Assembly: GCA_039583875.1 (NCBI GenBank)
Contig: CM077150.1
Location: 278,501 to 342,500 of the forward strand
DNA from: Platanthera guangdongensis
Taxonomy: Eukaryota; Streptophyta; Magnoliopsida; Asparagales; Orchidaceae
Direction of reading: 5' to 3'
DNA: 64,000 nt
The notes under the pieces were generated by a model. It made no database searches. It saw nothing but the letters and a program-made list of their open reading frames with translations, and had not been told where the DNA came from. A program made the translations under genes and the position numbers. This document shows, piece after piece, positions 23,163 to 55,885 of the stretch. How positions within the stretch are numbered: the first letter of the stretch is position 1; each line of letters opens with the position of its first letter.

Positions 23163-23268
23163 ATGAGGATTCTGAAGAGACCCTTGGCCGCCGCCTTTCC
23201 CTTCCCCGCCTTGTCATCTCTCGCCGCTTCCCACGTGTCGAACGTGAGAGATCTCTTCTGTCGAAGAG
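23163..23268 (+). CDS. HAD-IG 5'-nucleotidase, exon 1
   Basis: The ATG at 23163 opens a 35-codon exon ending in phase 1 at GAAGAG|GTTTGC. The peptide is basic and rich in Arg, Ala, Ser and Phe, with no acidic residue in the first 29 (MRILKRPLAAAFPFPALSS). It looks like a mitochondrial presequence. Joined to exon 2 it reads CRRGYSSPACK, which fits the R-3 cleavage pattern (R-x-Y before S). Intron 1 is only 68 bp (23269-23336, GT..TTGGTAG). Start choice: it is the first ATG after the TATA-like region and joins in frame to the conserved exon 2. Targeting is inferred from composition only. Confidence 0.82.
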
Positions 23269-23336
23269 GTTTGCAGTTCGTATTTCGTTTTTCTGGAGTT
23301 TTGGTTTTCGGGGTTTTGAATCGCTGGTTTTGGTAG

Positions 23337-23608
23337 GATACAGCAGTCCGGCTTGCAAAAAGACGACCGAGGAGTGGTTAATGGATGTCAAGAAGAAGCC
23401 GAGGATCTGGTCGTCTCCTGTAGGGGATAAGGAGATAGAGCTCGTAAATAGGATATTCTGTAACCGTTCCCTCAATATGAAAAGCATCGTGGCCGTGGGG
23501 TTCGACATGGACTATACGCTGGCGCAGTACAAACCGGAGACATTCGAGGCAATGGCCTATGAAGGGACAGTGAAGAAACTGGTCACGAAGTTGGGGTATC
23601 CCACCGAG
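23337..23608 (+). CDS. HAD-IG 5'-nucleotidase, exon 2 (catalytic DxDxT)
   Basis: 90 codons plus two bases, ending in phase 0 at CCCACCGAG|GTCTGT. The order is a lysine-rich lead (TTEEWLMDVKKKPRIW), SSPVGDKEIELVNRIFCNRS, then SIVAVGFDMDYTLAQYKPET and EGTVKKLVTKLGYPTE. FDMDYT is the HAD motif I (DxDxT), whose first Asp is the phosphate-accepting nucleophile. The whole block is the conserved start of the HAD superfamily IG 5'-nucleotidase family (PF05761), predicted to dephosphorylate nucleoside monophosphates. The frame is intact and conservation is high, in contrast to everything around it, so I read this as the functional host gene. Confidence 0.93.
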
Positions 23609-23821
23609 GTCTGTGCTCGTCTTCTTCCTTTTTCTTTCTGTTTGGTTCGCTCTTCGTTTTATATTGAAGTTTTTGCCCTCAAGAATGGACTGAAGTTTCA
23701 GTTTAAAGGATTTCATTAAGTTCATCCGTTTTTTAATAAATGTATGCGATAAAAAAAAGCGCCAAGAAGATTGGCGGCTCTGAGCTCCCAGTCTTTACTT
23801 CCTTGTCTATTTTTTTTATTC
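23609..23821. other. Intron 2, unique 5' end
   Basis: T-rich intron sequence with no repeat or gene recognised. Confidence 0.5.
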
Positions 23822-23840
23822 TAATAGGAGCATTCTTTTC

Positions 23841-23975
23841 CTATTAGAAGGAAAGATTTGGAATGAAACTGTAAGGAAAGATATGATGTACTTAGGCATT
23901 AGTGAGATTATGAAGACAAATGATTCATATAGCCGACCCCACTATAGTGGGATAAATACTTGAGTGTTGTTGTTG
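23841..23975 (+). mobile_element. 5'-truncated RTE LINE insertion with 19 bp target duplication
   Basis: 135 bp reading ETVRKDMMYLGISEIMKTN, the C-terminus of RTE ORF2 (compare KETIKKDMMYLDISKIMTK-like sequence in the LINE at 60.8 kb). It ends in the CCCACTATAGTGGGATAAA terminus and a (GTT)n tail. The 19 bp TAATAGGAGCATTCTTTTC occurs at 23822-23840 and 23976-23994, the duplication left by target-primed reverse transcription. Confidence 0.88.
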
Positions 23976-24007
23976 TAATAGGAGCATTCTTTTCGGGCTA
24001 ATGACAT

Positions 24008-24249
24008 TGACATTTCAAATATCATTTGCTATACAGTTGGTTAGTACTCATTTACCTGCACATCCAAGTAGTATAAATACCTGGCTGAGCTCTTCGGAGG
24101 TATGCATGATATGAATTCTGTATAGTTTCTTCTTCCCTGTCTCTGCATCTCTCAGGTTCTCTTTCGTAGGAAACTTCCCTCCGCTTTCTATTCAGGAGTT
24201 TCACAAGATTCTTTAGGAAGGCTTCCGGGTGAGCAAGCGGGAGCACATC
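24008..24249 (+). repeat. 5' LTR remnant of the outer gypsy element (Gypsy-A)
   Basis: TGACATTTCAAAT at the left. It aligns with 53703-53915 through TTTACCTGCACA, GATATGAATT, TAGTTTCTTC and GGTTCTCTTYCGTAG. A TATA-like AGTATAAATACC lies at 24069. The right end is set by the primer site. Confidence 0.7.
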
Positions 24250-24252
24250 AAG

Positions 24253-24264
24253 GGGTATCAGAGC
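24253..24264 (+). promoter_or_regulatory. Primer binding site of Gypsy-A
   Basis: GGGTATCAGAGC, the plant tRNA-iMet type site with one change (TGG to GGG), just after the LTR. Confidence 0.65.
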
Positions 24265-24935: not shown

Positions 24936-27573
24936 TGTTACGGGCCTACTTCCGTAACCGTGGTAGCTCGCCGGAGTAGTGGTCGGAGGCGGAGATGATG
25001 ACGGTAGTGGGGATACCGTGGAGCCGGAACCGCGGCTGCCTATGCAGGGTTGCTCGTTGGAGGAGAGAGACACCAAGATCTCACAACAAGAGACAAGAAC
25101 TAGACTTCATTCATTGATAACCTCATACAAAACTCTAAGGGTGTATTTATAGAACCCCCGGGTGGCACACCCGTAAATACATGAAGATGCAAAAAATAAT
25201 AAAATACCCTAATATAATAAGAGTCGACTCTAATACAAACTCAATACATATAAAATGATAAATGACGAAGGATCCAAAACCGATCCGTAACATCTCATCC
25301 GTCCCCCAAAAAGAGTTTGCCCACAAACTCTATCCGATGCCCTCGTCGTCAGAGTCCTCGACATGTAGGTAGAAGAGCCGGCTGCACCTGTGGCCACGAG
25401 TGTACTGCTAGTCGCAATTAAAGCATAGTCCTTGGACACGTCGTTGCAGCATCTCAGCACGAGATAAACGGCGGATCAGTGGAGTTGGTGGTCCCGCGCT
25501 ACGGCCCCGTGGAACGATGTTTGTGGGAGGCAGGTAGGCGTCATGTGCTAGCTGGAGGCGACGATCGCAGAGCCGGGCCAGACTCATAGCAGTCACTAAG
25601 TCTGGAGGGGCCTCAAACTCAACATCTAGTCGCAGTCGCTCGCGAAGTCCAGCGGTGAAAATGTCGACCTGCATATCCGGAGCAAGTGGGTCATGCGCTA
25701 AGAGAAGCTGAAATTGTTCCAGGTACTCGTCCACGGTACCAGTTTGGCGAAGAGATGTGAGTGCGTCGAGGGAGTTACTGCGGATAGGAGGTCCGAAACG
25801 CAAGTTGCAGAGTCGCTTGAAGTCGTCCCAAATCAGATTCGGCCGGTCGGTGAGAAGTCGAGAAACCCATAAAACAGCGGCGTCAAGCATATGGAAAGAT
25901 GCTATATGGATCCGATCTGCCGGCGAAGTTTGCTGGTGGCCGAAGAATTACTCACACTTGGTGAGCCAACTCAAAGGATCGCTTTTCCCATCATAGGTTG
26001 GAAATTCCAATCTTGTATAACATGGTACAATCGCTGCGTCGGGGTGCGCGAGGACTGGCGGCGGCGGCTCGTGGACGATCAGGGGTGGCGGGGCAGTGTG
26101 GAGAAGTGGTTGTGCCTGACTGCTGCTGGCATGATCGTGTGTCGGGGCGGTAGACAGATAATCGATGCGCTTGGAGAGCACAATAATGGCCTCCTGTTAA
26201 CGATCCCCGAGAGCAGTGAGCGCAGCTTGTTGCGCCATGACGGCCTGGAGCATGGTCATAATCTGATTGAGTTGTTCAGATGAGTCACCCATAGTGTGAG
26301 TGGAGGAGCGAGAAGAAGAACGAGTGGCCGGCCGGTGGGATCGCGTCGAGTCAGAAGACTAAGAGTGGCCACAGGAGCCGCGGTGACGCCCAATATTGAC
26401 ACCGAAGGAGATGAGCCCGCTGGAAATAATAATTTGTGGCTTGGAGGGCCGAAGATGGCGGCTTTTTAATGAAAGTGGGGCTGCTTGTGTGGAGAGGTAG
26501 TGGGACCCACTGCTAATTAAAAGAAAAATTAATGTGGAATGGTCCAAACAGTGACATCTGCAACTCGGGATTAAAAATTTTGGAAAAAGAACGGGGCAGG
26601 CGAAAGAAATAAATCGGACTTTGATGGGGCTCGAGGTCAGCGGAAAGAAGGAGACGACGGTGTGCTCGAGAGATAGAAACATCCCGTGCTGTGCCGGATT
26701 GCTTTCGACAGACCACAAAGAGGCGGTGGGTGTGCGGCTTGAGGTGGTGGGCTCGCTGGTACTTGGTGCAGGACGAGATGGAGGCGTGCTGGGACTTGGT
26801 GCATGCCGGGATTGATTTTGACGGTCGACAAGGATGCAGAGGTCGTGCGGCTCGAGAGAGCAGGGCTCATCGGTACCTGGTGCAGGCCAGGAGAGGCGCG
26901 TAGCGGCGATACGGTAGGGTTTCTGGTGTCGATGAAGAGGCGCGGTGAAGGTGCGTCGCTGGAAGCAGACGCGTGCAACTGCAGGTGAAGCCGGAGGTGC
27001 TGTGCTGGAGTGGTGTTGCTGCAGGAGCTGCTGCGGCCAGCAGAGGAGGGTTTCGAGGGAGATGGAATGCGTCGAGGGAAGAAGAACAGTTGCAGCGGCA
27101 AGGAAGGCGCATGCAGTGAAGTTGAAGGAGATGATGGAGAAGAATGAGAGCTTGAGGGAGATGATTGAGAAGTGTAATGGCGTCGCGGAAGAGGATCGAG
27201 GGCTCTGATACCAAGTTGTTAAAGGCCTACTTCCGTAACCGTGGTAGCTCGCCGGAGTAGTGGTCAGAGGCGCAGATGATGGCGGTAGTGGGGATACCGT
27301 GGAGCCGGAACCGCGACTGCCTAGGCGGGGTTGCTCATTGGAGGAGAGAGCCACCAAGATCTTACAACAAGTGACAAGAACTAGACTTCATTCATTGATA
27401 ACCGCATACAAGACTCTAAGGGTCTATTTATAGAACCCCCGGGTGGCACACCCGTAAATACATGAAGATGCATAAAATAATAAAATACCCTAATATAATA
27501 AGAGTCGACTCTAATACAAACTCAATACATATAAAATGATAAATGGCGAAGGATCCGAAACCGATCCGTAACA
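24936..27573 (-). mobile_element. TR-GAG-like non-autonomous gypsy element
   Basis: Two 357 bp LTRs (24936-25292 and 27217-27573) and target duplication CACTC on both sides (24931-24935, 27574-27578). The element is on the minus strand: the primer site TTGGTATCAGAGC abuts the right LTR, and the polypurine tract TTTTTGGGGGACGGATGAGA abuts the left LTR. The interior (1.9 kb) holds a ~0.9 kb leader and a gag only; protease, RT and integrase are absent. LTRs differ at about 17 of 357 positions by eye, so the copy is older than the copia at 9.8 kb. Confidence 0.9.
25330..26292 (-). pseudogene. gag: gag of the TR-GAG element, three nonsense codons, no frameshift
   Basis: From the ATG at 26292 a single 321-codon frame runs to TAG at 25330-25332. 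It begins MGDSSEQLNQIMTMLQAVMA (coiled coil), passes RLEFPTYDGKSDPLSWLTKC, then the Retrotrans_gag core (WDDFKRLCNLRFGPP.., LTSLRQTGTVDEYLEQFQLL), and a zinc-knuckle-like CFNCD-stop-QYTRGHRC. In-frame stops are at 26197-26199 (TAA), 25948-25950 (TAA) and 25408-25410 (TAG). The frame is otherwise intact, so it was under selection until recently. The family is close to chromovirus gypsy gags. Confidence 0.88.
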
Positions 27574-28210: not shown

Positions 28211-28711
28211 ATAAGGGCCCGTTTGGTGCCCAGATATTGGCTTTGGTCATAAAATCAATATCTGCAGGAGTTATTTTTATGCAGAAAATCAATTCTGTTG
28301 TTCGGCTGCATGATGATATTTAATGAGCAGAATTAGAATTGATACTTAAATGTTATTCGGCTGCGCAAAAGAATTGACTTCTGGAATTGAAAGTTTTAGA
28401 GTTTACAATTTTTTAAAATTTAACCACGCCATCAAAGTACTAATAATACTTGATCATAAACATCGCAAACGATTAAATCCAAAAACAATATCCATAAATA
28501 AAAGTACAAAAATAAAAAATGATGTAGATGAAAAGTCCATCGCCTATAAGAAAAACCAAACTAGCTGTAGAAATGTAGAGCCAAACCTTTTATATACTGT
28601 CATGTCAAAAATACAGGAGTACAAATATATAAGATAAGAGAAGGAGAAATAATCCTATACAAGAGATGTGAGACTAATAGAAGAAGGAAGAAGCGGGCCT
28701 ATAGATGGGCC

Positions 28712-30235
28712 TTATACATGGGCTTTTATATCATTTTCTCTCATATTCTCTAACACTCCCCCACAAGCTGGAGCGTACAAATCGTAGGCACCAAGCTTGG
28801 ACAGGAACTGATGGTATAATTTCCGAGGTAATGCCTTGGTAAGAGTGTCAGCCACTTGCCCAGAAGCAGGAACATGCTCAAGCTTTAGCATCTTCGATTG
28901 GACCTTTTTTCGAACGAAGTGACATACAACTTCAATATGTTTAGTCTGCTCATGGAACACATGATTCTTTGCAATATGGATTGTAGCCTGATTTTCACAA
29001 AACAAAGATGAAGGTGAGGATAATTTAACTCCCAAATCCATAAGAAGACTTTCCAGCCAGGTTAGTTCTGACACAACAGCCTCCATCGTACGGTACTCAG
29101 CCTCAACAGACGAGCGAGCAACCACAGACTGCTTCTTACTCCTCCATGTGATAAGATTCCCTCCAAAGTAAGTACAAAAACCAATTGTAGATCGTCGGTC
29201 GTCCAGCGAGCCTGCATAATCTGCATCAGAGTAAGCAATAAGAGAAAGCTCCGAAGATGGTTTATACACAAATCCTTTTCCATGAGCAATCTTCAGATAT
29301 CTGAGAATGCGTTCCACTGCCTGAAGATGGGAAACACGTGGAGTGTGCAGAGGGAGGAACGAGAGTAGCCGAAGCAGCAAGGTGAGGGGCAGACCATGCT
29401 TGCGGTAGCAGGTGGCCTCCAGATGACCATACCTGCCGCAATGAGAGCACTTGAAGAGAGTATGGACACCACGACCCCGTACTCGAGACTGGCGACCGCC
29501 ACGAGCCGGATTACTGCGAGTAGAAGGAGCAAGAGTAGCCACGGGTTGCTGAAGGAGAGCGGGAGAGAGAGGTGGTGCATTTGGAGGAGGGGTAACTTTC
29601 AGAAGCATCAGATAAACATCCGAGAGTGACGGAGTAACCACAAAAAAAATGATATGAGCGCGGTCACTATGAAGATATGGTGAAAAACGGGCCATCATCA
29701 TAGCAATCCCGACTGCTTCTTTCTGGTGTCGTTGAGTACCTAAGTCAGTGGTGGGAGGCTGATGCTGGATCTAAGGATCCACAAGAGTTTTAGCCCGAGC
29801 AACAAAGGACGTCAAGTCACCAGTAACTCCAGGGTCGAGAGACTGAAGATCGGTAAGAATGTCGAATAAGTGTTGAAGGCTGTCCTTCCCTGGGTAGAGA
29901 GAATGGAGGTCAGTCCACATAGCGTGAGCCGTATCGTGATACATGGCCATTCGATATGGCTCAGTGTCCAGAGAGTTGAGAAGCTAATATTGGACACGCC
30001 CATTGTCCCGAATCCACTAGTTAGTCTGGTCAGTGGGAGGAGAACTTGTCAGGTGATGAAGGAGACCTTTAGTTTGCAGCACACGGCGAACAAAGTGAAC
30101 CCATTCTACAAAGTTTGATTTTCCACGGAGGGAAATTGTGGTAATACGTAATTCATCACGGAGCTCCAAGGGAGCAGCATGATCTGCTCCGGGAAGAGTT
30201 GTCGAATCGGAAGCAAAAGACGAGAGGGAAGCCAT
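28712..30235 (-). pseudogene. Copia-C gag-RNase H fusion, one 508-codon frame with three stops
   Basis: ATG at 30235 (MASLSSFASDSTTLPGADH) opens a copia gag. Its knuckle CSHCGRYGHLEATCYRKHG lies near 29460. About 25 residues later the frame passes directly into the RT/RNase H end: VSHLQAVERILRYLK, YSDADYAGSLDDRRSTIGF, SSVEAEYRTMEAVVSELTWL and FHEQTKHIEVVCHFVRKK. It runs on past the normal RNase H end into the LTR. TAG stops at 30017-30019, 29984-29986 and 29771-29773 are in the same frame; there are no frameshifts. The junction removed protease, integrase and most of RT cleanly in frame. Confidence 0.85.
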
Positions 30236-31002
30236 ACAAGTAATGCCAAGAACAACAACTCTGAAAGCTAGCCACACGGTTAGAAAGCTAGGCCAATGCG
30301 GCTAGACAAGGCATGCGGAAGAGAGACCGCGACAAGAATCTCGCGCAGCAGACAAGAATAAGTCGCAAAAGAGACCAGCAGGCGAGCGGTAAGAACCAGT
30401 CCGTTGCGGATAGAAGGGAAGAAGAGAGGCCACGACAAGAAGGGAAGAAGAGAGGCCGCGACAAGAAGGGAAGAAGAGAGGCTGTGGCTAAAGCAGCGCG
30501 CGGCAAGCAGAGCACCAGGCCGCTGCGGATAGAAACAACGGATAGAGGCAGCAGATAGGGCAAGCCCACAGCGACTGAAAGACCTAATAGAGGGCCGGCG
30601 GTTTGGCGAGACCGCGGCGAGAAGGTGAGGTCGAACGGCCAACTGAAGCAGCCAAAAACAGCGGACAGAAGCAGTGACTGGAAGCAGCGGCAAGGAGCCG
30701 CGACTAGAAGCAGCAACAAAGAACAACGAGAAGCAACAAAGAACAACGAGAAGCAATGCAGCAACTGGAAGTAGCGGCAAGGAGCAGCGACTAGAAGCAT
30801 GAACAACAGGAAGAAAGCGGGTCCCACCAGGCAGAGAGAAGAGAGTTATAAAAGCAGAGGGAGGGAGAAGAGGAGAGGTGGAAGCCACAAAGAGGAGGGG
30901 CGGTTAGAGAAGAGAAGGTCGTTGAACAGCAGCGTGAAGGAGGGATAAGGCCGCGCGGATAACAACAGTTAGAAAAAAAGGTAGCCGCCCGGGATCAGAT
31001 TC
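30236..31002 (-). other. Leader of Copia-C
   Basis: Between primer site and gag ATG. On the plus strand it is purine-rich, with AAGAAGGGAAGAAGAGAGGC repeated three times near 30410-30480. Leu/Ser-rich ORFs are artefacts. Confidence 0.6.
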
Positions 31003-31625
31003 GCTCTGATACCATGCAGAAATGTAGAGCCAAACCTTGTATATACTTTGTCTTGCCAAAAATACAGGAGAGAATACAAATATATAAAAAAAGAGAAGGA
31101 GAAAAAATCTTATACAAGAGATGTGAGACTTGATTGATTAAAATTCTTTTCAAACTTATAAATTTATATTAAAAACATGCATAAAATCAAATAATAAATT
31201 TATTAAATATTTTTATATTTTTTGTAATATGAAATTAAAAATTTATGAAACAATTATACAAAATTAGTTGTAAGAATAAAACGTTAAATAAATTGAAACA
31301 ATAAGTCTAATCGATTTAAACATACATAATATGATAATATTATGTATATGCGATTTAAACATACGATGATAGTTTACTAATATAACATAAAATAAAATAA
31401 CAGACGATATATTTAGAAGTTATGTCGGTTGATATATCGGAAAAAATCAGACATGTCGGTCTATATTTTACAAAAGGACATAATATATATATTTTAGAAA
31501 AACATATCATTTTGCCCTAAAAAATGTCATGTCGGGAGATATGTCGGACATGTTAGAGGACATTTAAAATAATGTTTGTAATGCTTCACTGAAGGATGAG
31601 CTTGCAAATAATACCAATAAAATTA

Positions 31626-32404
31626 GGGCGCTGTTACGTGCACACCACTTTTGGCTATGTGTACACCAACTCTTAAAATAAAGGGAAATGTTACGTGCAC
31701 ACCACTTTTGGCTATGTGCACACCAAAATTTTAAAATAAATAATACCATTACTTTTTTTTCCAATCTCACCCATATTAAACCTCAGTGCACACCCCACTC
31801 CTATTTTCTCCCGAAAGCCGAAACTCTGCCCTCGCCCCCGCTTCAACCTCGCTTCACATGACATACAGGTAGAGTTGGATGAGATACTCCAAAAATACAA
31901 TACATCATAGGCTATTCAAAAAAATAAATTGAAAAGAAAACTACATGTGCAATTGGATCTACAACAAGCCAAACTGTAAATTCTTTGATTCCGGGTCACT
32001 TAAAGGGACAACCAAAATGAAGCTTGAACCAGAAAAATGACAGTGCATGTACTAATATTTAATTTTAAGTAGCTTGCAAATATTTTATTTATTTAAGACA
32101 ACTAATATTCATATATTTATGATAGTGCATATTTACATGGACTTAAAAATGGACCGTGCAATTTTTTAGTTATATTGGTGAAAATGATTTGAGATTTTGG
32201 TTTTTTTTTTTTTTTTGCTGCTTTGAAATATAAAAGAGAAGAAATCTTTTGTATATGAAGTAAAAAAAACTCAAACTTTATTTTGGTGTTTATTTAACAG
32301 TTTGACATGCAAATACAATTTATGGTGTTTAATTGACATTTTGGTGTGCAAATAAAATTTATGGTGTGCACATAGCCAAAAGTGGTGTGCACGTAGCAGC
32401 GCCC
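31626..32404. mobile_element. MITE with duplicated terminal repeat
   Basis: Termini GGGCGCTGTTACGTGCACAC.. and the complement of GGGCGCTGCTACGTGCACAC..; the repeats extend ~45 bp (CACTTTTGGCTATGTG). TA borders both ends. At 31690-31730 the subterminal ~40 bp is repeated a second time in tandem. The interior is AT-rich and non-coding. Superfamily undecided (TA duplication, or hAT-like TAGGG ends with a poor 8 bp match). Confidence 0.75.
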
Positions 32405-32466
32405 TAAAAATAATGCAATAATATCACTTGCACTGAGTTTGTAAATATATCAATCAATAAAATATA

Positions 32467-33623: not shown

Positions 33624-33841
33624 AGTTTTTGTTGGTTTACAATCCAACATACCGACTTCTTTAAGGAGTGTACCTATATTGTAGAAGACATTTCCTGCGA
33701 GTCACTAGTCAATTATGAGTATTTCAGTTTTTAAGTCTTTAGTTTGAAATTATTTTCTTTTGTGGAACTTTAATTTTTTGATACATATGTCATTACTTCT
33801 CGTTATAACAATATCGTTCACATACACTAAAAGTAGAATAC
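33624..33841 (-). pseudogene. Copia-B piece 2: reverse transcriptase
   Basis: The minus strand reads YVNDIVITR (YVDDxxIT catalytic motif with one Asp changed to Asn) and VGMLDCKPTKTLM. It lies between the Harbinger and Reina insertions. Confidence 0.7.
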
Positions 33842-34052
33842 TGTTATGCTACTGCTAGGGATCTAAGCAAAGAGTAAACTAGAACAAAAGACGGCTAGGA
33901 TTTTTGTGGAAGAAGAAAAGAATACCTGAAATGGATAAATCATGCCTCCAAAGAGGGGGGGGGGGGAAAGGGGTATTTATGGAGCCCCCTTTTCCCAGGG
34001 CCGACCGGCCCCAATTGAGGGCGGAACCGGTGTGGTTCAGCCCTCCCTCCTC

Positions 34053-36245
34053 TTATTGATTAATTGCTGGCTGAACCGGATGGTTCAGCCCGGTCTCAGT
34101 CCGGCGCTCCTTTAGGTCTTCTGGCGTACTTGAATCCTCGGAACCGCAGATCGTCCGGGGCCATAACATTCCCCTCCCCATCAAGAGGCAGCTTGTACTC
34201 AAGCTGGAAGTCGGGAAATAACTCCCGGAACTCCAAGAAGTCCACCCACGTGTTGTTAGCCTCTGAGAGATCCTTCCACTTGACCAGAATCTCGGAACGG
34301 TACTCCGTGCCATGTTTCTTCCATCGGGACAGCAAGACATCTTCGGGACTGGGGCGCAGCTCCCCCGTCGTAGTGGCCTCGGGTGAGAGGGAAGCACTGT
34401 GGCTGCCGCTCCCAGCTTCTTCTTCAGCAGTGATACATGGAAGGTGGGGTGGATGCGAGAACCCTCAGGAAGGGCAAGCGTGTATGCGACCGGCCCCACC
34501 CGTCGATTGATGCGAAACGGCCCATAGAACCGTGGGGAGAGTTTCTGATTGGAGCGGCGAGCAACTGAAAGCTGTCTGTACGGCTGGAGACGGAGGAAGA
34601 CCTCGTCTCCAACCTGAAAGGTCCGCTCCGTGCGGTGCTTATCGGCCTGCAACTTCATCCGGTCCTGAGCAACCCGGAGATTGTCCCGCAAGAGAGCCAA
34701 GGTCTGATCCCGGTCACGTAAAGCACGATCCACGGCCGGCAGAGCGGTGCTGCCCGGCTCATACGACCGCAGAGTAGGTGGTGCGCGTCCGTAGACAACC
34801 TCGAATGGAGTAATCCGACTGGCCGTGTGATACAAAGTGTTGTAGCAGTACTCCGCCCAGTGTAACCATCGAGTCCACGTCCGGGGCTCATCCATGACGA
34901 AGCAGCGAAGATACGTCTCGACACCCCGGTTCAGCACCTCTGTCTGGCCATCTGTCTGCGGATGGTGCGCTGTGCTCATGCGCAACCTGGTGCCCTGCAA
35001 CCTGAAAAGCTCCTGCCAGAATTTGCTGAGGAAGGTCGGATCGCGATCCGATATGATGGAGCTTGGGAGACCATGGAGGCGCACTACCTCCCGGGCAAAG
35101 AGATCGGCAACGGTTTCCGCGGTGTAAGGGTGGCTGAGAGCGAGGAAATGGCCGTATTTGGACAGCTTGTCCACTATGACCAAGATCGTGGACTTGCCCT
35201 GAGACCGGGGCAGGCCCTCAATAAAATCCATCGAGACCGTCTTCCATATCTGCTGAGGAATCTCCAAGGGCGTGAGCAACCCATCCGGTGAGGACGTCTC
35301 GTACTTCTGCCGCTGGCACATGTCGCACTGCTGCACAAAACGCTGCGCGTCCCTGCGTAACCCCCTCCAAAAGACATTGGCCCGCAGCCGTTGTAATGTG
35401 CGAAACACCCCGGAATGACCTCCGGTCGGGGACGAGTGGAACTCCTGTAACATGACCTCCTTCCAAGCGGACGAAGCGGGGATGACCACCCTCCCGTGGT
35501 AATACAAATGTCCTCCAAACAGCTGGTACCCTGGAGGCGTGGGCTGGCCCCGAGACAAGGCCTCCACAATAGGCTGGAGCTCTGGATCCGCGGCTATCTC
35601 CCTCTGAATGTCATCCAAGGACTCGATCAACGGTACCGACAGGCGAAAGATGGTGCCTTCCGGCAGGCGGGATAGGGCATCGACCACTAAATTCTCCTTG
35701 CCCTGCTTGTACACGATCTCATAGTCATACCCGAGCAGCTTGGTCAACCACTTCTGCTGGAGAGGAGAAGCTAACCTCTGATCCAAGAAGTGTTTCAGGC
35801 TCTGGTGATCGGTGCGAACCTTAAAATGGTGGCCTAGCAGGTATGGACGCCACAACGTCACTGCGTGAAGAATTGCTAGCATCTCCTTCTCGTACGTGGA
35901 AAGGCCCAAGGTTCGAGGTGCCAAAGCCTTGCTGAAGTAAGCCAACGGCCGCCCCTCCTGCATCAAAACCGCCCCAATTCCCACTCCTGAAGCGTCCGTC
36001 TCCACTACAAATTCCTTGGTGAAATCCGGTAGTGCGAGCACCGGCGTGGTCGTCATAGCCTACTTGAGAGCGGAGAAGGCCCGCTCCTCCTCGTCATGCC
36101 ACGTAAAGGACTTTTTGTGGAGGAGCTGTGTAAGTGGTCGTGCCAGCTTACCATAATCCTTCACGAACCTCCTATAGTACCCAGTGAGGCCCAGGAAGCC
36201 TCGAAGTGCTCGCACGTTAGCCGGCCGCGGCCACTCCACCATGCT
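34053..36245 (-). pseudogene. Reina RNase H-integrase-chromodomain
   Basis: Continues in the next frame from MVEWPRPANVRALRGFLGLT. A TAG at 36060-36062 interrupts before [13 protein letters not shown]. Then come RNase H ([27 protein letters not shown]), the integrase zinc finger ([10 protein letters not shown]), integrase core ([33 protein letters not shown]) and [11 protein letters not shown] second one-base shift near 34385 moves the chromodomain ([29 protein letters not shown]) to another frame. The chromodomain would bind modified histone tails to guide insertion. Confidence 0.92.
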
Positions 36246-40587: not shown

Positions 40588-41879
40588 TAATGTAAGGTAG
40601 GCTATGAGGTGGACAAACCTAGACTTCTAGGGAAGGGGTGTGGACGTGACCCTCTAATGCAACTCTAAATGTAACGCAAACCGTCGGCGACGGCGCCAAA
40701 ATAATTTGAGCAATTACAATTTCAACCCACGCAGTTAATTAAAGGAAATAAACAAACATTCAATTCAGCAATTATTTAATGACTTTCCTCCACTCGGAGG
40801 GCCAAGGCTAAGCGCGTGGCGAATAAATCCCACCTGCAGATTATAAATGCATCACAACAAATTTCTACAAGCCCAGATCTAAGCAAAGTACGACAATCAA
40901 ACAATAATAATATCAAATCAAATGTTCCAATACAACGAGAGGCTCACCAAAGTAGCAGGCTGACCGAGACACTGAAGGCTTTGGATCCGGATGCGCTGAA
41001 CGACGATCGAAGATGAAACCAGAGGCACAACAATGATGACAATGGATGTCCTCGGCGGAAAGTGGGGAGATCGGGTCGGAAACGAGTAGATCCAACCACT
41101 AGGAGGGATATCCGGGCGGGGGAGGGTCGATCCAATATTTTGGGATCGGATCCGGGTGAAGGGATGATGAACAGATGGTGGAAATAACGGATCGGGGTGT
41201 TAAAAATTTAGATCTGAACCGATCTAAATTTTAGGGTTGTTTGGGCGGTGGACCACGTAGGGGAGGGGCGGTTTGGGAAGGCAAGGGGGGAGGGGGGGGG
41301 GGGGAGGCCGCCGGGCTGTTTGGACAGCCCAAAAAGGTAGGCCGGAGGTACTGTAGCGCCAACACTAGCGATACTGTAGTAGTGGTACTGTAGCAGCGAC
41401 ACTCTATCAACGACTGTTAGGGCTCCGGAAATAGGGGTTGCATCGGGTATAGATGAGGATTTGGGGGGAGGAATTAATGGCAAGGGTTAGGGGAAGGATA
41501 TGGGGGAAGAAAACCAACCTAGGAATCGTCACCTAGGGCTCCACGACATCGACACCGAGAGGTGATCGCTGGAATCTGGGAAAATTGTTTCCAAAATTCT
41601 GCAATGCCTTGGTTCAGCCTCTTAGACCATTATTTATAATAAAACAAGATACTAGGACATCCCTATCAACAATTATGATTGGCCGGTGGAGGAGACCACT
41701 AAAATACATGAAAATAAACCAATAAAATAAACTAATATATGATTTTGACTCGCGGCGACATTCTGGACGCAGCGCGGAGTCGGATCGGCGTTCCTATCAA
41801 GCCTTCCTGCGCGAATAAACAAACGTGGGTCCCGCCTCATGACGAGCTCCTGGTGCACGATCTGATGGATCGTCATTAA

Positions 41880-43670
41880 CTCCCCCCGACTGAAAATCCT
41901 TCATCTCCGATGAATGGAGACGGTTGTAATGATGTCGAAGTCCAGGGGCGAGTCGATCGAGCTCTGCAGGTAGTATCCAAGCGTCATCTGCATCGGGATG
42001 ACCCCGCCAATGTACCAAGTAGCGACAACGCAACCCATTTGTGGTCGAAACAAACTGGTGGGATCTGATCTCTGTGATGCTCTCATCGCTCAACTCTCGA
42101 GTGGTGGATCCCGGTGCGATCGGCGGTGCCGTTAGTCAAACCATAGAAGACGAGTCCCCGGGCGGGTGAGTGTCAGCAATGGATGGACTGTAGTGGCTAT
42201 CAGACGTAGGTGGAGTATGAGAATGATTTGGCAACGAAAGTGGGGGCGGGGGCGGCTGGGTGTCTCTGCCGCTTGGATCCGCATACTCGCGAGACTCAAA
42301 GTGCATCGTCAGATCCCCGACATTAAATACTGGATGAATCCCCATGCTTGCCGGGATGTCGAGCCAGTAGACATTTATCCAAATACGACTTATAATAGAG
42401 TAGGAGCCCATTCTCCTGGCGCTTAACTTCTTGGCAGGCCCCGAGGGGAGCCTCTCAGGACGGATTTGAACCATTAACTTTTCACCTTCATTAAACACTC
42501 GTTCTCTCCTTCTCTTATCTGCTGTGCAAATGACTCATCAGACTCACTAGGGGACGACTCTAAGGGACTCGGAATGAGGTCAATGAGCTTCCTAGGGTCG
42601 TCTCCTGATACTATATGAAACGGACTCAACCCAGTAGACCTATTGACGAAACTGTTGCAGACAAACTCTGCGACTGAAAGGTTAAGATCCCAACTACCTA
42701 CATGCTCTCCTACCAGGCATCGCAATAGGTTCTCTAAGCTACAGTTGACTACCTCTGTTGCAGATATGTCGAGGAGAACCTAAGAATGGTGGTAGTCTTG
42801 TGCCATAGGGTATTCCAAAAATAGCTCATGAATCTAACATCACGGTATGATAGGATAGATTTAGGTAGGCCATGCAGTGTAAAGATGATCCTCATAAAGA
42901 TGGATGCTACGTGTGAAGCATCCGCTGTCTTGCGGCAGGCGATAAAATGCGCCATCTTTGAAAACCGATCGACCACCGCGAAGATGGAATCGTGTCGACG
43001 TAGATTGCGGGGAAGCCCGAGCACGAAGTCCATGCTCATGTCCTCCCAAGGGTGATGTGGGGCTGACAAAGGCGTGTATAGACCAGTGTTTTGCTTGTGC
43101 CCTTTGTCGTGTGACAGATACGGAAGTGGCGGACAACGCGAGCCACGTCCTTCTTGAGACCGGGCCAGTAGAGGCGGTCCTCAACAATGACAATAGACTT
43201 ATCCCGCCCAAAGTGCCTAGCAGCCCTGCCCGCATGCAATTCCCAAATTAGGTAATCGCGATAGGAAGTCTAGGGTATGCATAGGTGGGAGCCCCGATAC
43301 AGATATCCCTTAAAGATCTGATAGCTCTCAACAGGGTCAGGGGGGTCTCGGGACAAGGCGGAATAGATCTCGCCAAAATCGGGGAATGTCGGGTAATCTT
43401 GGATCACTCTCTCAATTCCGTTCACTCGTGCGGTAATCGTCTGGATCAAGGAGATACGACGACTCAGAGCGTCGACCGGCTTGTTCTTAACACCAGCTCG
43501 GTGTTTGAGAACGTAGTGAAAATCCTGTAGGTACTCGACCCACTTGGCATGCCGGTGTCCCAACTTGCATTGTGAATCCAAATAACATAACGTTTGGTGG
43601 TCTGAATAGAGCACAAACTCCCAGGGGAGGAGATATTGCCTCCAGTAGCGCAGAGATTGGACGATCGCAT
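41880..43670 (-). pseudogene. Gypsy-E RNase H end, integrase and chromodomain
   Basis: DHQTLCYLDSQCKLGHRHAK and VKNKPVDALSRR (RNase H end), [17 protein letters not shown] (zinc finger region), [14 protein letters not shown] (integrase first Asp), then 42093-41880 reading CRYLVHWRGHPDADDAWILP, a chromodomain. Frame breaks are common. The motif usually read SDRD is LSYRD here. Confidence 0.8.
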
Positions 43671-43677
43671 AAAATTC

Positions 43678-45290
43678 TCAATCATAGTTCGAGTATTTTT
43701 GCTTGGCTTCGTTCAGTTTCTCACTAAAGTAGGAAACTGGATGTCCCTCCTGACTCAATACGCCACCAATACCTACACCAGAAGCGTTACACGCGACCTC
43801 GAACGCACGACTAAAATCGGGAAGTCTCAGAACGGGGGCCGTTGTCAATCTCTCTTTGATCTCCTCAAACGCTTTAGTGGCTGCGGGGGTCCATTGAAAT
43901 TCTCCTTTCTTGAGGCAGTTCATGAATGGGTCCATAATCGTACTGAACCCCTGGACAAACCTCTTGTAGAAGGTAGCAAGCCCGTGAAAACTGCGAGCCT
44001 CGTGAATATTCGCTGGTACATGCCAGTCACGAATAGATTTGACCTTCTCAGGGTCAACGAAAACACCAGTAGGCGACACAATGAAGCCCAGAAAGTGAAC
44101 CGACTCCGAGAAGAAGGAACATTTCATTAAGTTCACATATAATTTCTCTCGACGGAGGGTGCCAAAGTGAAGCCTCAAATGATCAAGGCGGTCGGCCTGA
44201 GTATAACTATAGATCAGTCTATCGTCGAAATACACTACGAGAAACTTGCCCATGTAGGGCCGCAACACTTGCGTCATAACTCTCATAAAAGTGCTCGAGG
44301 CATTAAATAGCTCAAATGACATGACCAACCGCTCATACAGACCATCCTTGGTCTTAAAAGCCGTCTTCCATTCGTCTCACTCGCGAACTCGTATCTGATG
44401 GTACCCGCTACGAAGGTCGATCTTGGAAAAGATCTGGGCACCGAACATAGTATCCAACAAGTCATCAATTCACGAGATGGGGAAACGATACTTAACCGTG
44501 GTTTTATTAATGACACGGTTGTCGATGTATATACGCCAAGTACCGTCCTTCTTAGGGGTAAGAAGGGCGGGAGCCGCACATGGATTCAAACTCTCACGAA
44601 TAAAAGGCTTCCGAAAAAGCTCGTCGACTTGCCTCTTGAGCTCAACGTGCTCATCGGGGTGCATATGATAATGGGGTAGGTTCGGGAGGGAAGCCCCCGA
44701 GACTAGATCAATGACATGCTGAATGTCCCGTGGAGGGGGCAACTCATCTGGGATAATATTCACAAACTCATCTAGGAGGGGACACATCGCTAGTGGGTGG
44801 TCAACAGGGGTGTCCTCAGATGCCTGAGTGGCAGCCACAATGTAGATGATGTCCGACTCAATACTGTCTCACTCCACTCACCTCGGCTCAAAATATGCAG
44901 GGGTCTCGAGGCGCTCGTACTCACAAATGGCTCAATCACACCCTTGGATCTCTCCCTGGATTGGGTTGGCGTCAACGTAATCTTTCGCCCTTTGTCGTAG
45001 AAGACACGCGTGTTCGAATGACCGAAACACGTGACGTCGCGATCAAAAAACCAGTGTCGGCCGGGCAGCACATAGGCGACATCCATGGGAATGACATCAC
45101 ACCAAACTCGGTCCTGGAAGGAAGCGATGCTAATAGGCACAAGACAACATTGGGTAACCTGAATTGCAGTCTTATCTACCCAGGCGACACGATAGGGGTG
45201 GGGGTGAGACTCTGCCTTCACCTGCATACGGTCAATCCCCTTTAGGGCCATAATGTTCACACAACTTCCACTGTCGATGGCCAACTTGCA
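43678..45290 (-). pseudogene. Gypsy-E protease, reverse transcriptase and RNase H
   Basis: Protease-like AIDSGSCVNIMALKG (D-S-G) at 45284. RT N-part 44838-44470 ([36 protein letters not shown]). RT C-part from 44328 ([31 protein letters not shown]). RNase H ([20 protein letters not shown]). Split into at least three frames. Confidence 0.82.
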
Positions 45291-45509
45291 GGATCCGCCT
45301 GCACTCGGGAAGTACGTGTAAAAGATGGTGGTGCGTCACCAATCCTCATCTACACAAGGGGTGTGTAGGAGGCGCCTAATCACTCCCACCTCCAATGATC
45401 TTTCTGCGTCACTCTCCCAACCTTTCTCGTCAGTGGCCTTAATCTCTTCCATAACCTCTCTATCTTCCTCTAAACCCCGCTCCTCATCTCCAACTAGCAG
45501 TGTCCGCAC

Positions 45510-46766
45510 GAGGCACTGCGCTGCCATGTGTCCTCTGCCGGAACATCTACAACACAGAATACCCGCAGATCGCTGACCATCAGTGGTGACGGCCTTGCCC
45601 TTCATGTTTGCAGGAACACGTGAGGGTGTAACCGTGGTGGTCTGGGGGGAGCGGGTTTCCTAAAAGTTGCGGAATCAGTCTGAGAGGGGAACTGCCTCGT
45701 GCTAGATGACCGGAGGTACTGCTCGTACTCGAGAGCGAGCTGAAGTATCTGATCGACGGTCTCTAAGCGATGAGGAATCAACTATTTTCAAATTTCAGAA
45801 TGTAAGCATGCCTTAAGACGAGAGGCAGTGGCAATAGGCTCCTCCGAGACATCACTCCTAACGACTAGCTTGTCAAAACGAGTCATATACTCAGTGACAG
45901 TAAGTGTCCCCTGCCAGTTCTGTAACTGCTCAAATAACTGGTCTCGGTAGGATGCGGGGATGTATTTATCGCTCAGCCTTTTCTTCATCTCATCCCACCT
46001 GGCGATGGGGTAATAACCATCTCGCTCTAAAGCTCTCTCTACACTAATCCAGAATACCTTAGCCTGCCCAACCAGCTTCATTTTTGCGAAGCAGACACAA
46101 CACTCGTCACTCATATCATACCACTCGAAATAGTGGTCCATGTCCAGGAGCCAATCACTGAAGGCTTTCGGATCCAGACGACCATCGAACGAAGGAGCGT
46201 TGAGTCGAATACGACGAGTGATGTCAAAGTGGCGGCCACCCCTACATGGGTCGGGATAATCCTCGGGATAATCATCATGGGCGTAGTTGTATGGAGCGGG
46301 TGGGGGGCCGCGCTTTCTCCGACCTGGGGGATAATACTCTTCGCGGTGATGATCACAACGACCGTGTTGGGGTACAAGGCTGACGTGGCATATGGTACTC
46401 ATCACGCTGATGTGTAAGTCTATCACGCGCTGGATCAGGATTTCGCCTTGCCGGTAGAGCTGGGGGTCAGTGAGGAATATCACGACGGTGGCAGTCTACT
46501 AGAGGCTGACCAACTCTCGGGCGCTGGTCGAGACGTGGGGGAGCATCAGAGTCGTGCTCAAGTGAATCATCACGCTGTGTTGGAGTGTCCCTGACATTCT
46601 CTAAGTGGTCCAAACAAAGATTCACCTAGGAAATATCATGACGCACATCGTTGAACTGGGCACCTAAGGTGTCAAAACGATATAGGATAAGACGCTGAAA
46701 CTCAGCAAAAGCGACACCCTAATTCGAGCTAGCCGCTTGGTCACCGGTGATTAATGGATCTGACAT
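45510..46766 (-). pseudogene. gag: Gypsy-E gag
   Basis: ATG at 46766 (MSDPLITGDQAASSN then stop). The core from 46300 reads LNAPSFDGRLDPKAFSDWLL, HYFEWYDMSDECCVCFAKMK and WDEMKKRLSDKYIPASYRDQ. The knuckle CCRCSGRGHMAAQC lies near 45550. At least two nonsense codons at the start and a frame break near 45787 disable it. Confidence 0.82.
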
Positions 46767-48145
46767 ACTTGCCTTAAATATCCTACCACTACGGAGCATG
46801 CAAATGACCTAACCTGGCTCTGATACCAATTGATGTTCGGTAGGCTACGGGGTGGACAAACCTAGGCTTCTAGGGAAGGGGTGTGGACGTGAGTACGTGA
46901 CCCTCTAATCCAACTCTAAATGCAATGCAAACCGTCGGTGACGGCGCCAAAATAATTTGAGCAATAACAATTTCAACCAACACAGTTAATTAAAGGAAAT
47001 AAACAAACATTTAATTTAGCAATTATTTAATGGCTTTCCTCCGCTCGGAGGGCCAAGGCTAAGCGCGCGACAAATAAATCCCACCTGCAAATTATAAATG
47101 TATCGCAACAAATTTCTGCAAGACCTGATCTAAGCGAAGCACGACAATCAACTAATAATAATATCAAATCAAATGTTGCAATACAACGAGAGACTCACGA
47201 AAGTAGCAGGCTAACCGAGGCACTGAAGGCTTTTGATCCGGATGCGTAGATTGACAATCGAAGATGGAACCGAAGGTGCAACGATGATGACAGTGGCTGT
47301 ACTCGGCGGAAAGTGGGGAGATCGGGCCGGAAACGGGTAGATCCGACCACTAGGAGGGATATCCGGGCGGGGGAGGGCAGACCCGATATTTTGGGATCAG
47401 ATCCGGGTGAAGGGATGATAAACGGATGGTGGAAATAACAGATCGGGGTGTTAAAACTTTAGATCTGAACCGATCTAAAATTTTAGGATTGTTTGTGCGG
47501 TGGATCCACGTAGGGGAGGGGCGGTTTGGGAAGGCATGGGGGGGGGGGAGGCCGGCAGGCTGTTTGGACAGCCCAAAAAGGAAGGTCGGTGGTACTGTAG
47601 CGTCGGTACTGTAGTAGTGGCACTGTAGCAGTGACACTGTAGCAACGACTATTAGGGCTCCGGAAATAGGGGTTGCAGCGGATATAAGTGAGGATTTGGG
47701 GGGGGGGGTGGTGGTGGAATTGATGACAAGGGTTAGGGGAAGGATAGAGGCGGGGGGGGGGGGGGGGAAAGAAAACCAACCTAGGAATTGTCACCTAGAG
47801 CTCCACGGCGTCGGCACCGATGGGTGATCGCTGGAATCCGGGAAAATTATCTCCAAAATTCTGCAATGCATTGGTTCAAACTCTTAGACCATTATTTATA
47901 ATAAAAAAGACATTATGCCATCCCTATCAACGACTATGATTGACCGGTGGGAGAGGCCGGTAAAATACATGAAAATAAACCAATAAAAATAAACTAATAT
48001 ATGATTTTGACTCGTGGTGACATTCCGGACGCAACCGCTGAATCGGATTGGCGACCCGATCAAGCCTTCCTGTGCGAATAAACAAACGTGGGTCCCGCCT
48101 CGCGGCGAACTCCTGGTGCATGATCCGATGGATCCCATCATCTAG

Positions 48146-52100: not shown

Positions 52101-52419
52101 AATAACTTCAACCGGGATGGTATATTTAAAAGCAATATTTGGGAAAAAAATTCCGCTTAAATGTACAGTTATGTGCGTCAACGATTTGATCTGATGGCCA
52201 CTTAAAAGTGGTAAACAGAGGTCTTGAGAATTTCATACCGTGCATACCATTTGACCAACCAAATACCACATTCCATATAGCCTAGTTAACACAATATGAG
52301 GTTGCCTATCGACAACCACATATTTGCCGTATATTCCAGATTCTACACTGGTTGTGGCAGTTGATCGAAGCTTACATGCTCGTTAAGCAGTCGTTCGGAC
52401 TGAAGATTTTAGCATACAC
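52101..52419. other. No gene seen
   Basis: Mixed sequence between the copia LTR and the Tourist element, possibly still Gypsy-A pol decayed beyond recognition. Confidence 0.3.
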
Positions 52420-52422
52420 TAA

Positions 52423-53238
52423 GGCTTCATTTGGTAGAGCGACTGCGATTATAAAAGGAGCTATTGTAAATGCAGTTTTGTAAATGAAGCTGTTGGAACC
52501 TGATTGCTTGAAAATGAGATCTATTTGGATAGTCAGTATTTGCAGAGCTGTTCAGAATGGAAAATCATTTGGCAAAATAACGTTTACGATCAATTTTATA
52601 TAATATATATATACAGATATATATTATTATATTAATAATTTTATATATTATATTTAATAAAATATATATTTTTTAAATGTTTCAAAGTCTAAGTTTTTTT
52701 TATTAAAACCTCCGATGACCTCCCGTGCCCCGCCCTCCTGAGCCCGCAGTGACCTCCAGATGGAGGAGTAGAGCTTGGCGGAGGCAGAAGACGAGGCAGA
52801 GTTGGTCTCAACTCCTCCACCTCCGGTGGCGGTGACCTCCAGGTGGAATACTAGAGCTTGATGGAGGCGGAACCAGTCTTAACTCCTCTACCTTCGGTGG
52901 CGGTGACCTCTAGATGGAGGCTAGAGCTTGGCAGAGGCGGAGGAGACGGAGCCGGTCTCAACTCCTACACCTCCGACGGCGGTGACCTCCAGATGGAGTA
53001 GGAGGAGGTGTTGGAGCACCGTGAGATGCAGGATCCGCGAGCCCTGTTGTAATGTGCGTCTTCGTGTGGACTAAACACTACCAACTGGAGGTCGCCGCTC
53101 CGGTTTGGGGACGCCGATTATTAGGCACGCAGGTAAACGGAGAGGTTCAAATATACGACGAAAAAACAAACGAAAAAATAGGGCGGCTTTTCGTTTGTGA
53201 AAAACGGAACGGAGCCAAAAGCTAAACCAAATGAAGCC
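52423..53238. mobile_element. Tourist-like (PIF/Harbinger) MITE
   Basis: Perfect 13 bp terminal repeats GGCTTCATTTGGT..ACCAAATGAAGCC with TAA on both sides (52420-52422, 53239-53241). It has no transposase. It interrupts the Gypsy-A integrase. Confidence 0.85.
52747..53015 (+). repeat. ~80 bp minisatellite inside the Tourist element
   Basis: 3.3 units starting near 52751, 52829, 52906 and 52985. Each contains GACCTCCAGATGGAG, AGAGCTTGGCGGAGGC and TCTCAACTCCTCCACCTCCG. Units differ by small indels and substitutions. Confidence 0.85.
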
Positions 53239-53241
53239 TAA

Positions 53242-53663
53242 GAGAAAAAAGGAGTTCACGAAAGCCACATGGGTGTACATTAAATTGCAGACTTACAAGC
53301 AAGTTAGTATGCATGCTTATATATACCATAAATTTTTTCTCAAATATGATGGAACTTTTCGCATCTTCAAAAAGATCATCTCAATGGCTTATAGAGTACA
53401 GTTGCCCCATAGCAGTAGGATAAATTGCACATTTCATATTTCACAGCTGAAGTAACACATTGATAATCTTCCGGTTCAACCGATAATACCAGAAAATGTG
53501 GTTGAACTAGGTAATGCCATGCTTAAATCTAAGCTCATATGGGATAGACTCATGGTTCCTAACAATGGCAATCACCTAAGTTTTATAAAGTGGTTCAATG
53601 ACCCATATGAAGGTTCAACATGGGAGAGCGATTATGATTTGAAGAGAAGGTACCATGATTGAT
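53242..53663 (+). pseudogene. Gypsy-A integrase C-terminus and chromodomain
   Basis: WVYIKLQTYKQVSMHAYIYH, KFFLKYDGTFRIFKKI, YRVQLPHSSRINCTFHISQL, then after a stop FIKWFNDPYEGSTWESDYDL. This is the standard end of a chromovirus pol (GDWVYLKLQPY..KYYGPF..HVSQLK..KW..ATWE). Plus strand, matching the 5' gag at 24.4 kb. Confidence 0.8.
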
Positions 53664-53675
53664 CCATGGGGATGA

Positions 53676-53702
53676 AGATTGGAAATGGGGAGGGCAAGGG
53701 TA
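53676..53702 (+). promoter_or_regulatory. Polypurine tract of Gypsy-A
   Basis: GAAATGGGGAGGGCAAGGG immediately before the 3' LTR remnant. Confidence 0.6.
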
Positions 53703-53915
53703 TAGACATTTCAAATAGATATAGTAGCTAATAAAACACTATACTGAACAATTAATTAGTGAAGTGAGGATATATTAGTCTTTTACCTGCACAATTAAGT
53801 TGTATACTTACCTGACCAAACTCTCTTTTTAAACGTATGAAAGATATGAATTGTTGTTAGTTAGTTTCTTCATCCTAGTCTATGAATCTCTTGGGTTCTC
53901 TTCCGTAGAATACTC
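53703..53915 (+). repeat. 3' LTR remnant of Gypsy-A
   Basis: Starts AGACATTTCAAATAGATA and aligns with 24008-24170, with a ~65 bp insertion or deletion. The match is lost after CTCTTCCGTAG, so the end is truncated. Confidence 0.65.
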
Positions 53916-55807
53916 ATTTCTGATGCGGAGCGGAGGACGAGTTTTGGGCCTGTTCGGGACTGTTTGGCGAATTATCATATATGACGTGCCTGGATCGATG
54001 ATTTGACTAGGGTAGCTGTAATAATTTTGTTTGGCACGATGTGACTTCCGCCCCTATCGAATTCCTGGAGATTGTCCAAGATGATTTTGGCTAGGGTGCT
54101 GTTTTTTCTTTTCTCTGTTTTCTTCCTGCACTTTATGATGCTAATGCAATTATCATGGATAGATGATTTGACTCCGCGGATGCGTTCGGATCCTCGTTAC
54201 GAATCGATTTCGTATATTTCTTTATTATTTTTGCATTTATTTTGATGTATTTGGGTAACCCCACCTCCGACCAACCATAGCCGTCGATGGTGGGTATCCC
54301 TAATCTCCTCTTTATTATAAATAAAGTGCTTAGGGGCTAGTTAGATGGATTGCAGATTTTGAAGATTGTGAATGCCAGAATTCCACAATCCCCATGTTGT
54401 CGACTACGTGGAACCCTAGATGACGACTCCTAGGCGCCTATCTTCCTCCCCAAGAAAAGACCTAACCCTAGCCTCCTTTTCCCAACCTCTAACCCCTCTT
54501 CCGCCACAAAGCCTCCCATAGTAGCCGCCGGCCTCCCTACAACCCTGCTATTTTTCAGCCACCTGCAACCCTTCTTTTCCCCTCTCCAACAACAACCGCC
54601 AACCCCTCTAGACCCTCCCTCTTGCTGTCCAGCCACCGCCCCCATCACAACTCCCTCCAGCCCACTCCTCACAAGATGTCGCCCCCCCTATCCTGTCCGT
54701 CCACCCCCAAAACAGGCCGCTGTCCCTATTCCCCCTGATTCCAGCCAGCTGCCGCCCCTTTCCTCCCAATTTCCAACACACCACCGCCCCATCCAGTCCC
54801 CCCCCTCCCTTCGTGAAACCACCACAAGCTTCCCCGTGCCCAGATCTGTCCTCACCGCCCGTATCTGCCTCCCTACAACCGGATATACCCTCCCACAGCC
54901 CGGATCCGCCCCTATACTGCCAGATCTACCCAACTAGCCCATGTTTCCTTTCCAAATCGTCTCCACCGCACCGTGCTTCACTGGATCTCACACCTTGGGC
55001 AACCCCCATGTTTTGTGATTATTTACTTGTTGTATGGAACTTAAATTCATAATATTAATATATCAGGTTTTAGATTTCATGTTTGTTTGGATCTCCAAAA
55101 TAGTAGTTGTTTGTTTTAGATTATTATTGTGATTTATAGAGTTTATTCGCCGCACACCCTTGCTTTGGCCCTCCACGCAGGAAAGCCTAACCCGCTTGAT
55201 TAAATGAATTATTATGTTTTTGATATAATCACGTGCGTGCGATTAAAGTATTTATTGTTTAATTTGAACTACCTGTCAGGATTTGCATTGCATGTAGGGT
55301 TAGAGCAACATTAAATCCGTCAGCTATAGATTCGTCCTACGTCACTTTCATTTTTGGTTCAAGAATTCTACAAGATTTTTTAAAGGGGCTATGCCAACGA
55401 TCACCTGGAAGGAACATATCAACCCACATGCTGCTGTGCTTTTCTTTGTTGAATCAGTTTGCACGACTGACTATGTAAATAGTAAATTTATAAATAAATT
55501 TAAATATTATTTTGATTTTTAATATTTAAAATAAATGACAATTAAAAGAAAGATTTTAACTACTTAAACTCTTTAAGTTTTATACATAACATTACATTGT
55601 TCAAGCAACATAGCATTTAGGCAAACAAATTGAATTTCATGAATATTATGTAGATAACATTGCTATATTGATATTATTGAATCAATTATTTTTCTAAAAA
55701 ATCTGATGATAGTGGGTTTTATCTGTTATGTATTTATAGCACAACTTTCCTTAATCTACTGTGTAGTATTTCCAACTTCTATTGATCAGGTGTTTTCCAA
55801 CCTGCAG
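53916..55807. other. Intron 2, 3' part
   Basis: 54430-55000 is C-rich with short ORFs that are not credible. 55010-55807 is AT-rich intron sequence running to the polypyrimidine stretch and CTGCAG acceptor. The GTTCGGATCCTCGTTACGA region near 54190 looks LTR-like but is unassigned. Confidence 0.4.
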
Positions 55808-55885
55808 ATGCTGAATTGGAGATTTGATTGGGAGTACATGGTCAGGGGTTTGGTCCTTGATAAGAAAAGAGGGAATATATTGAAG
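55808..55885 (+). CDS. HAD-IG 5'-nucleotidase, exon 3
   Basis: A 26-codon exon between TTTTCCAACCTGCAG and GTGAATC. It reads MLNWRFDWEYMVRGLVLDKK followed by RGNILK, starting and ending in phase 0. In this family LGYPxE is followed directly by LLxWxFDWxYMVRGLVLDKK, so the exon continues exon 2 without loss of a residue. The next conserved block (MDRHKYVK..) was not found up to 64000, so intron 3 exceeds 8.1 kb and most of the enzyme is encoded beyond the window. Confidence 0.9.

Follow-up and report, generated by a model that had tools for sequence, protein, structure and literature searches.

In this work, we have analysed 64,000 nucleotides of DNA from the orchid Platanthera guangdongensis (assembly GCA_039583875.1, contig CM077150.1, positions 278,501 to 342,500 of the forward strand; hereafter the window), in which a 5'-nucleotidase gene begins and its second and third exons lie 32,199 bp apart. 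The gene is already annotated as the published protein KSP40_PGU009647 (532 aa; P0150 below). We consider it very probable that this is an ordinary gene of its family, whose old phase-0 intron 2 likely grew to 32,199 bp through insertions of long terminal repeat (LTR) retrotransposons, and in which position 23608 is predicted to be spliced normally to position 55808. The parts of the gene that lie in the window are listed here, with the positions of the window.

23163-23268, plus strand: exon 1, coding part, from the ATG to the GAG/GT donor; start of the annotated protein.
23269-23336, plus strand: intron 1, 68 bp, GT...AG.
23337-23608, plus strand: exon 2, from the HAD motif DMDYT through LGYPTE; PF05761 at 77.9 bits, profile 1-52.
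23609-55807, plus strand: intron 2, 32,199 bp, phase 0, GTCTGT...CTGCAG.
55808-55885, plus strand: exon 3, MLNWRFDWEYMVRGLVLDKKRGNILK; PF05761 at 29.0 bits, profile 54-78.
55886-64000, plus strand: start of intron 3, whose length is 8,115 bp or more, as it continues past the end of the window; tblastn with the residues of P0150 that follow exon 3 gives no credible match.

Joined, the three exons form 456 nt in frame, and their translation is identical to residues 1-152 of P0150 (152/152), so that the exon 2-3 join is already present in the public annotation. Intron 2 is bounded by GAG/GTCTGT at the donor and CTGCAG/ATG at the acceptor. The match to PF05761 (Pfam; curated cut-off 28.5 bits) reaches 122 bits over profile 1-78 with the exons joined, against 77.9 and 29.0 bits apart, and because the profile segment found in exon 2 runs on in exon 3, the order of the family is continuous across the intron. 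Solved chains named cytosolic purine 5'-nucleotidase also align across this junction (best E 1.6e-18), and the stretch YPxE-[MI]LNW is unbroken there in the orchids Apostasia (P0151) and Phalaenopsis (P0153), as well as in the orchid-like protein P0152, encoded on a contig of 2,241 bp, which is 86% identical and contiguous at this point. DMDYT, LVTNS, KPGFF and YVGDHIYGD, which we take to be the HAD motifs, are all present in P0150 (4/4), DMDYT being the only one that the window itself holds. By its sequence, the gene is a member of the 5'-nucleotidase family PF05761 (HAD-IG, cytosolic purine 5'-nucleotidase type), and its product is a predicted enzyme. An earlier note on this DNA had claimed the phase-0 join with its splice sites, the intron of exactly this size and position, the unbroken family order and the identity as a conserved 5'-nucleotidase, and all of these are borne out by the domain matches and by the published protein, which makes the same join; its description of 23163-23608 as exons 1 and 2 was wrong in treating it as one block, since the 68-bp intron lies between them.

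Another explanation would be that the exon 3 described here was captured or duplicated and that the working one is located elsewhere near exon 2. It is general knowledge that plant transposons carry gene fragments; however, tblastn searches with P0150, P0152 and P0153 find a single exon 3 in the 64 kb, and this exon is bounded by an acceptor and a donor of its own, both in phase, so we regard a capture as extremely unlikely. An in-frame alternative acceptor after 55789 was dropped, as the published protein uses 55808. For the exons after exon 3, the window holds no credible tblastn match (best E 2.3 or worse with P0150; E 0.23, on the opposite strand, with P0152), and a Pfam scan of the three plus-strand frames of 55886-63999, run without a positive control, gave no match. 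With no exon 4 found in the window, intron 3 has the minimum length listed above, and the gene would exceed 40 kb if the remaining exons lie downstream.

How old is intron 2, and how large was it originally? For this comparison we used 239 different 5'-nucleotidase proteins, made up of 120 of 255 and 120 of 655 matches listed (1 repeated), the length limits of the first set favouring short open reading frames (ORFs). A script sorted the residues that follow LGYPxE; these are protein records, and the DNA behind their valine codons is deduced. After the motif, 149 proteins continue with the family block, 83 with a valine followed by unrelated residues, 3 are irregular and 4 have no motif. All 83 valine cases belong to the set of 120 of 255 (the rest of which comprises 30 contiguous, 3 irregular and 4 motif-less proteins), and the remaining 119 proteins, from the 120 of 655 listed, are contiguous at the junction without exception (119/119). 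Since valine is encoded by GTN, the simplest reading is that 83 ORFs enter intron 2 at this very position, and we infer that the position is old and common to many plants. In addition, P0015 and P0019 carry 29 extra codons (87 nt, hand count) between LGYPxE and LLEW, an insert that reads as a retained intron 2; P0015 counts as Arabidopsis-like since it begins almost as P0242, from Arabidopsis thaliana, does. A third protein, P0023, appears to read through intron 1 and resembles the window, as judged by eye, both there and over the opening codons of intron 2; it is orchid-like because it has the NLQYPIE stretch in common with Phalaenopsis. Through protein read-through, the long orchid intron would therefore have a conserved position, seen in 83 of the 120 listed proteins, and a short counterpart elsewhere, of 87 nt.

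The elements that we recognise in intron 2 are the following, K2P being the Kimura two-parameter distance between the two LTRs of an element and TSD its target site duplication.

23852-23976, plus strand: 3' tail like that of a long or short interspersed nuclear element (LINE/SINE), 74.5% over 145 aligned columns to 60943-60799.
24936-27573, minus strand: element A, gag-only LTR retrotransposon, 2,638 bp; LTRs 24936-25292 and 27217-27573; TSD CACTC; K2P 0.052.
25639-25905, minus strand: gag of element A, 49.4 bits (coordinates hand-converted).
28566-31130, minus strand: element D, short-LTR element; LTRs 28566-28675 and 31015-31130; K2P 0.077 over 110 bases; no TSD found.
29864-30088, minus strand: weak Copia-type gag of element D, 16.7 bits, under the cut-off of 27.
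31608-32422, no strand assigned: inverted repeat like that of a miniature inverted-repeat transposable element (MITE), with 61-nt arms, 85% complementary.
33726-33841, minus strand: Copia reverse transcriptase, left part; RVT_2 162-199, 14.2 bits alone (below cut-off).
33842-39478, minus strand: element B, near-intact Ty3 retrotransposon; LTRs 33842-34168 and 39154-39478; TSD AATAC; K2P 0.025.
39479-39838, minus strand: Copia reverse transcriptase, right part; RVT_2 82-143 at 39506-39691 and 35-73, in another frame, at 39715-39837.
40590-48140, minus strand: element C, decayed Ty3 retrotransposon; LTRs 40590-41871 and 46833-48134 (end at 48140 set by eye); K2P 0.109.
52419-53242, no strand assigned: MITE-like, short terminal inverted repeats of 22 nt.
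53270-54434, plus strand, that of the gene: element E, Ty3 remnant; integrase SH3 at 53270-53455 (40.9 bits) and an LTR-like stretch at 54170-54434, 69% to the LTR of C.

Together these pieces account for 21,796 of the 32,199 bp (68%), which makes transposable elements the main content of the intron, and the four LTR-bounded elements alone for 18,391 bp (57%). Element B has the LTRs, the perfect 5-bp TSD and the order gag, protease, reverse transcriptase, RNase H and integrase of a Ty3 LTR retrotransposon, carried in ORFs of 987 and 667 codons; the best matches to the Ty3 protein are from Platanthera zijinensis, at up to 93%. Element A has paired LTRs, a TSD and gag, and no pol was found in it in six frames read with stops as X and E up to 0.01, as in elements of the TR-GAG type, presumably a non-autonomous class. 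Element C retains gag, reverse transcriptase, RNase H and integrase domains, and we claim no TSD for it because the 5-bp match found is, by our estimate, roughly as good as chance would produce in a search over offsets. In each of A, B, C and D, gctctgatacca lies at most 4 bases from the right-hand LTR; on the minus strand this is what we take to be the tggtatcagagc primer site, and its place beside the right-hand LTR means that all four are antisense to the gene. The domain matches agree with this orientation for A, B and C, and for D, whose orientation comes from the primer site, the match is a sub-threshold one to gag. Four LTR elements are thus antisense and one remnant is sense, numbers too small to test for a bias.

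Element B is nested in the Copia element. The RVT_2 pieces on either side of it score, each alone, 26.9 and 13.5 bits (right) and 14.2 bits (left), all below the cut-off of 31.6 bits. Once B and one copy of its TSD are removed, the reading frame continues and RVT_2 is matched at 51.0 bits over profile 82-198, and displacing the empty-site join by 1 or 2 bases lowers the score to 32.5 and 29.0 bits (the shifted controls comprise 120 residues, against 143 in the true join, and retain all of the right-hand RVT_2 match). The frame and the domain restored across the empty site imply that B was inserted into a Copia element already present in the intron. The earlier note had described the whole intron as nested transposons; this is the case for B in Copia, the one pair for which nesting was demonstrated, while apart from this A, D, B and C are arranged one after another and about a third of the intron has no assignment. 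Its statement that every element is decayed is contradicted by B, with its long ORFs, low K2P and perfect TSD, and by a further element upstream of the gene (U, below), at K2P 0.005.

These observations also bear on the possibility that a misassembled contig joins exons 1 and 2 to exon 3 across unrelated repeats. The assembly is 1.89% heterozygous and repeat-rich, according to PMC9023349, which also gives a PacBio contig N50 of 1.57 Mb. There is, however, no N in the 64 kb, the exons are in the correct order and on the correct strand, and the intact TSDs of A and B together with the Copia element continuous across B speak against false joins inside these elements, an argument that does not extend to the stretches between them. 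We therefore rate an assembly error as very unlikely.

When did the intron grow? The substitution rate that PMC9023349 used for its own LTR dating is 1.65e-8 per site, printed per Ma and taken here as per year. With this rate, the K2P distances correspond to about 0.8 million years for B, 1.6 for A, 2.3 for D (from 110 aligned bases) and 3.3 for C. The split from P. zijinensis, the leafy sister of the leafless P. guangdongensis, has been placed at about 11.63 Ma ago (8.15-14.71), and for C to be older than the lower bound of the split, 8.15 Ma, the rate would have to be some 2.5-fold slower. As the LTR ages are younger than the split, this suggests that all four LTR elements, about 18.4 kb, were gained in the P. 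guangdongensis lineage once it had separated, if the rate holds.

We propose that intron 2 was short at first, with a length of perhaps 87 nt as read through in the Arabidopsis-like relative, at a position probably common to many plants, and that the four LTR elements would have landed in it after the split from P. zijinensis. Antisense insertions may have been tolerated because they present few polyadenylation signals on the sense strand. By analogy with other plants, silencing chromatin over the elements, with factors of the IBM2/EDM2 type for readthrough, could let the polymerase pass, and an orchid counterpart may act here.

Several points weigh against our reading. The donor GTCTGT differs from the plant consensus, an oddity offset by P0023, which reads E-V-C-A at the donor point of intron 2. 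About 32% of the intron lies outside any assigned element, and no protein named P. zijinensis is among the nucleotidase matches listed (120 of 655 and 120 of 255). Both expression in P. guangdongensis and splicing across intron 2 are deduced from the sequence and from the annotated model; the published gene set was built with RNA-seq among other evidence (PMC9023349). Finally, P0150 does not have the last 40 residues that are usual in its relatives, which leaves room for a truncated gene or for an error in another part of the model.

This last point also speaks for a decaying gene, in which the insertions would have stopped productive expression in a leafless plant, exons 1 to 3 being recent relics that still look clean. 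In the same direction, P. guangdongensis has been reported to be without 791 of 8,423 conserved gene families. Against this, the 532-residue model is open throughout and has the HAD motifs, and the exons have stayed open ever since the oldest dated element, C, arrived some 3.3 million years ago; we consider decay improbable. Clean exons and a full model with its HAD motifs indicate instead that the ordinary gene we favour is most likely expressed and its intron removed.

As for the missing end, P0150 stops at SRFAHQHRIVS, where P0151, P0152 and P0153 go on for about 40 residues. The plant C-terminus FACLYTSQ...PHEFD is absent from the P0150 model; it is not part of the family definition, and the 3' end of the gene is located outside the window. 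FACLY is present in 107 of the 115 proteins of at least 450 aa, P0150 being counted among the 8 without it, of which P0173 ends as usual. Either the gene itself has become shorter or a distant last exon escaped annotation, perhaps behind another long intron. A broader hypothesis would be that most of intron 2 (18.4 kb) was acquired after the split and that introns of such size leave gene models of the leafless species cut short or unrecognised, so that some of the gene loss reported for it would be an effect of annotation, with this gene as an example; we find this combination doubtful. A different kind of model came up in the same species: P0141 (KSP40_PGU015829), a formate--tetrahydrofolate ligase model of 824 residues, has stretches at both ends that look by eye like retrotransposon sequence, and the Ty3 query matches it at 89% over 26% of the query length, which suggests that exons of transposable elements are fused into gene models in the P. 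guangdongensis genome.

Outside intron 2, a very young LTR element (U) is found upstream of the gene at 9844-18527, plus strand, with TSD AAGAG and LTRs showing 8 differences over 1,636 aligned sites (K2P 0.005). Its two ORFs, of 393 and 768 codons, gave no Pfam match at 0.001, the 393-codon one showing a zinc knuckle at a sub-threshold 13.1 bits, and the element has the look of a non-autonomous LTR retrotransposon that encodes putative proteins of its own. Palindromic tandem repeats of about 31 bp are present in both of its LTRs (10169-10521 and 17216-17549). In intron 3, a LINE-type reverse transcriptase occupies 60760-62900 on the minus strand (limits by eye; ORF 61286-62131, RVT_1 115.8 bits), and the 3' end of this LINE resembles 23852-23976 of intron 2. 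The window also holds a tandem array at 529-1291 with a GC-rich 79-bp unit in 9.7 copies, and a run of 57 C at 4275-4331, likely a sequencing-error spot. A tRNA scan of the window and Rfam at gathering scores gave nothing.

Long introns have already been described for orchids and for Platanthera, so the novelty of the locus is low. In PMC9023349, both Platanthera species have average introns longer than those of most sequenced plants, the P. guangdongensis genome measuring 4.20 Gb with 73.24% LTR, and in PMC10888551 a PEPC gene of this species, PgPEPC3, was named for its unusually long introns. Our case concerns the same species and long introns too, and differs in adding a history element by element; the word nucleotidase is absent from the main text of PMC9023349, and no literature search was aimed at the gene name. 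In the Orchidaceae MSH1 genes, 85 introns (26.98%) exceed 10 kb and the longest, in Vanilla planifolia, reaches 101,025 bp (PMC10487979); that is likewise a conserved gene with introns swollen by transposable elements, in other species, and 32.2 kb is well within its range. Proper mRNA from rice genes with heterochromatic introns depends on OsIBM2, and in rice and Arabidopsis such transcribed genes with transposon-bearing introns require a conserved factor against early termination (PMC7145194), to which the orchid locus, known from its sequence, offers a resemblance. In grapevine, introns were enlarged by recent LTR retrotransposons (PMC3058033), in another lineage, whereas the orchid intron is dated element by element.

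The size of this intron is thus not exceptional among orchids. What the locus offers is a dated example of an intron that has likely expanded to 32 kb from a short ancestor while the flanking exons show no visible damage. The genomes of P. guangdongensis and P. zijinensis are published and almost collinear, and this pair could show whether giant introns underlie truncated or 'lost' genes in the leafless species.

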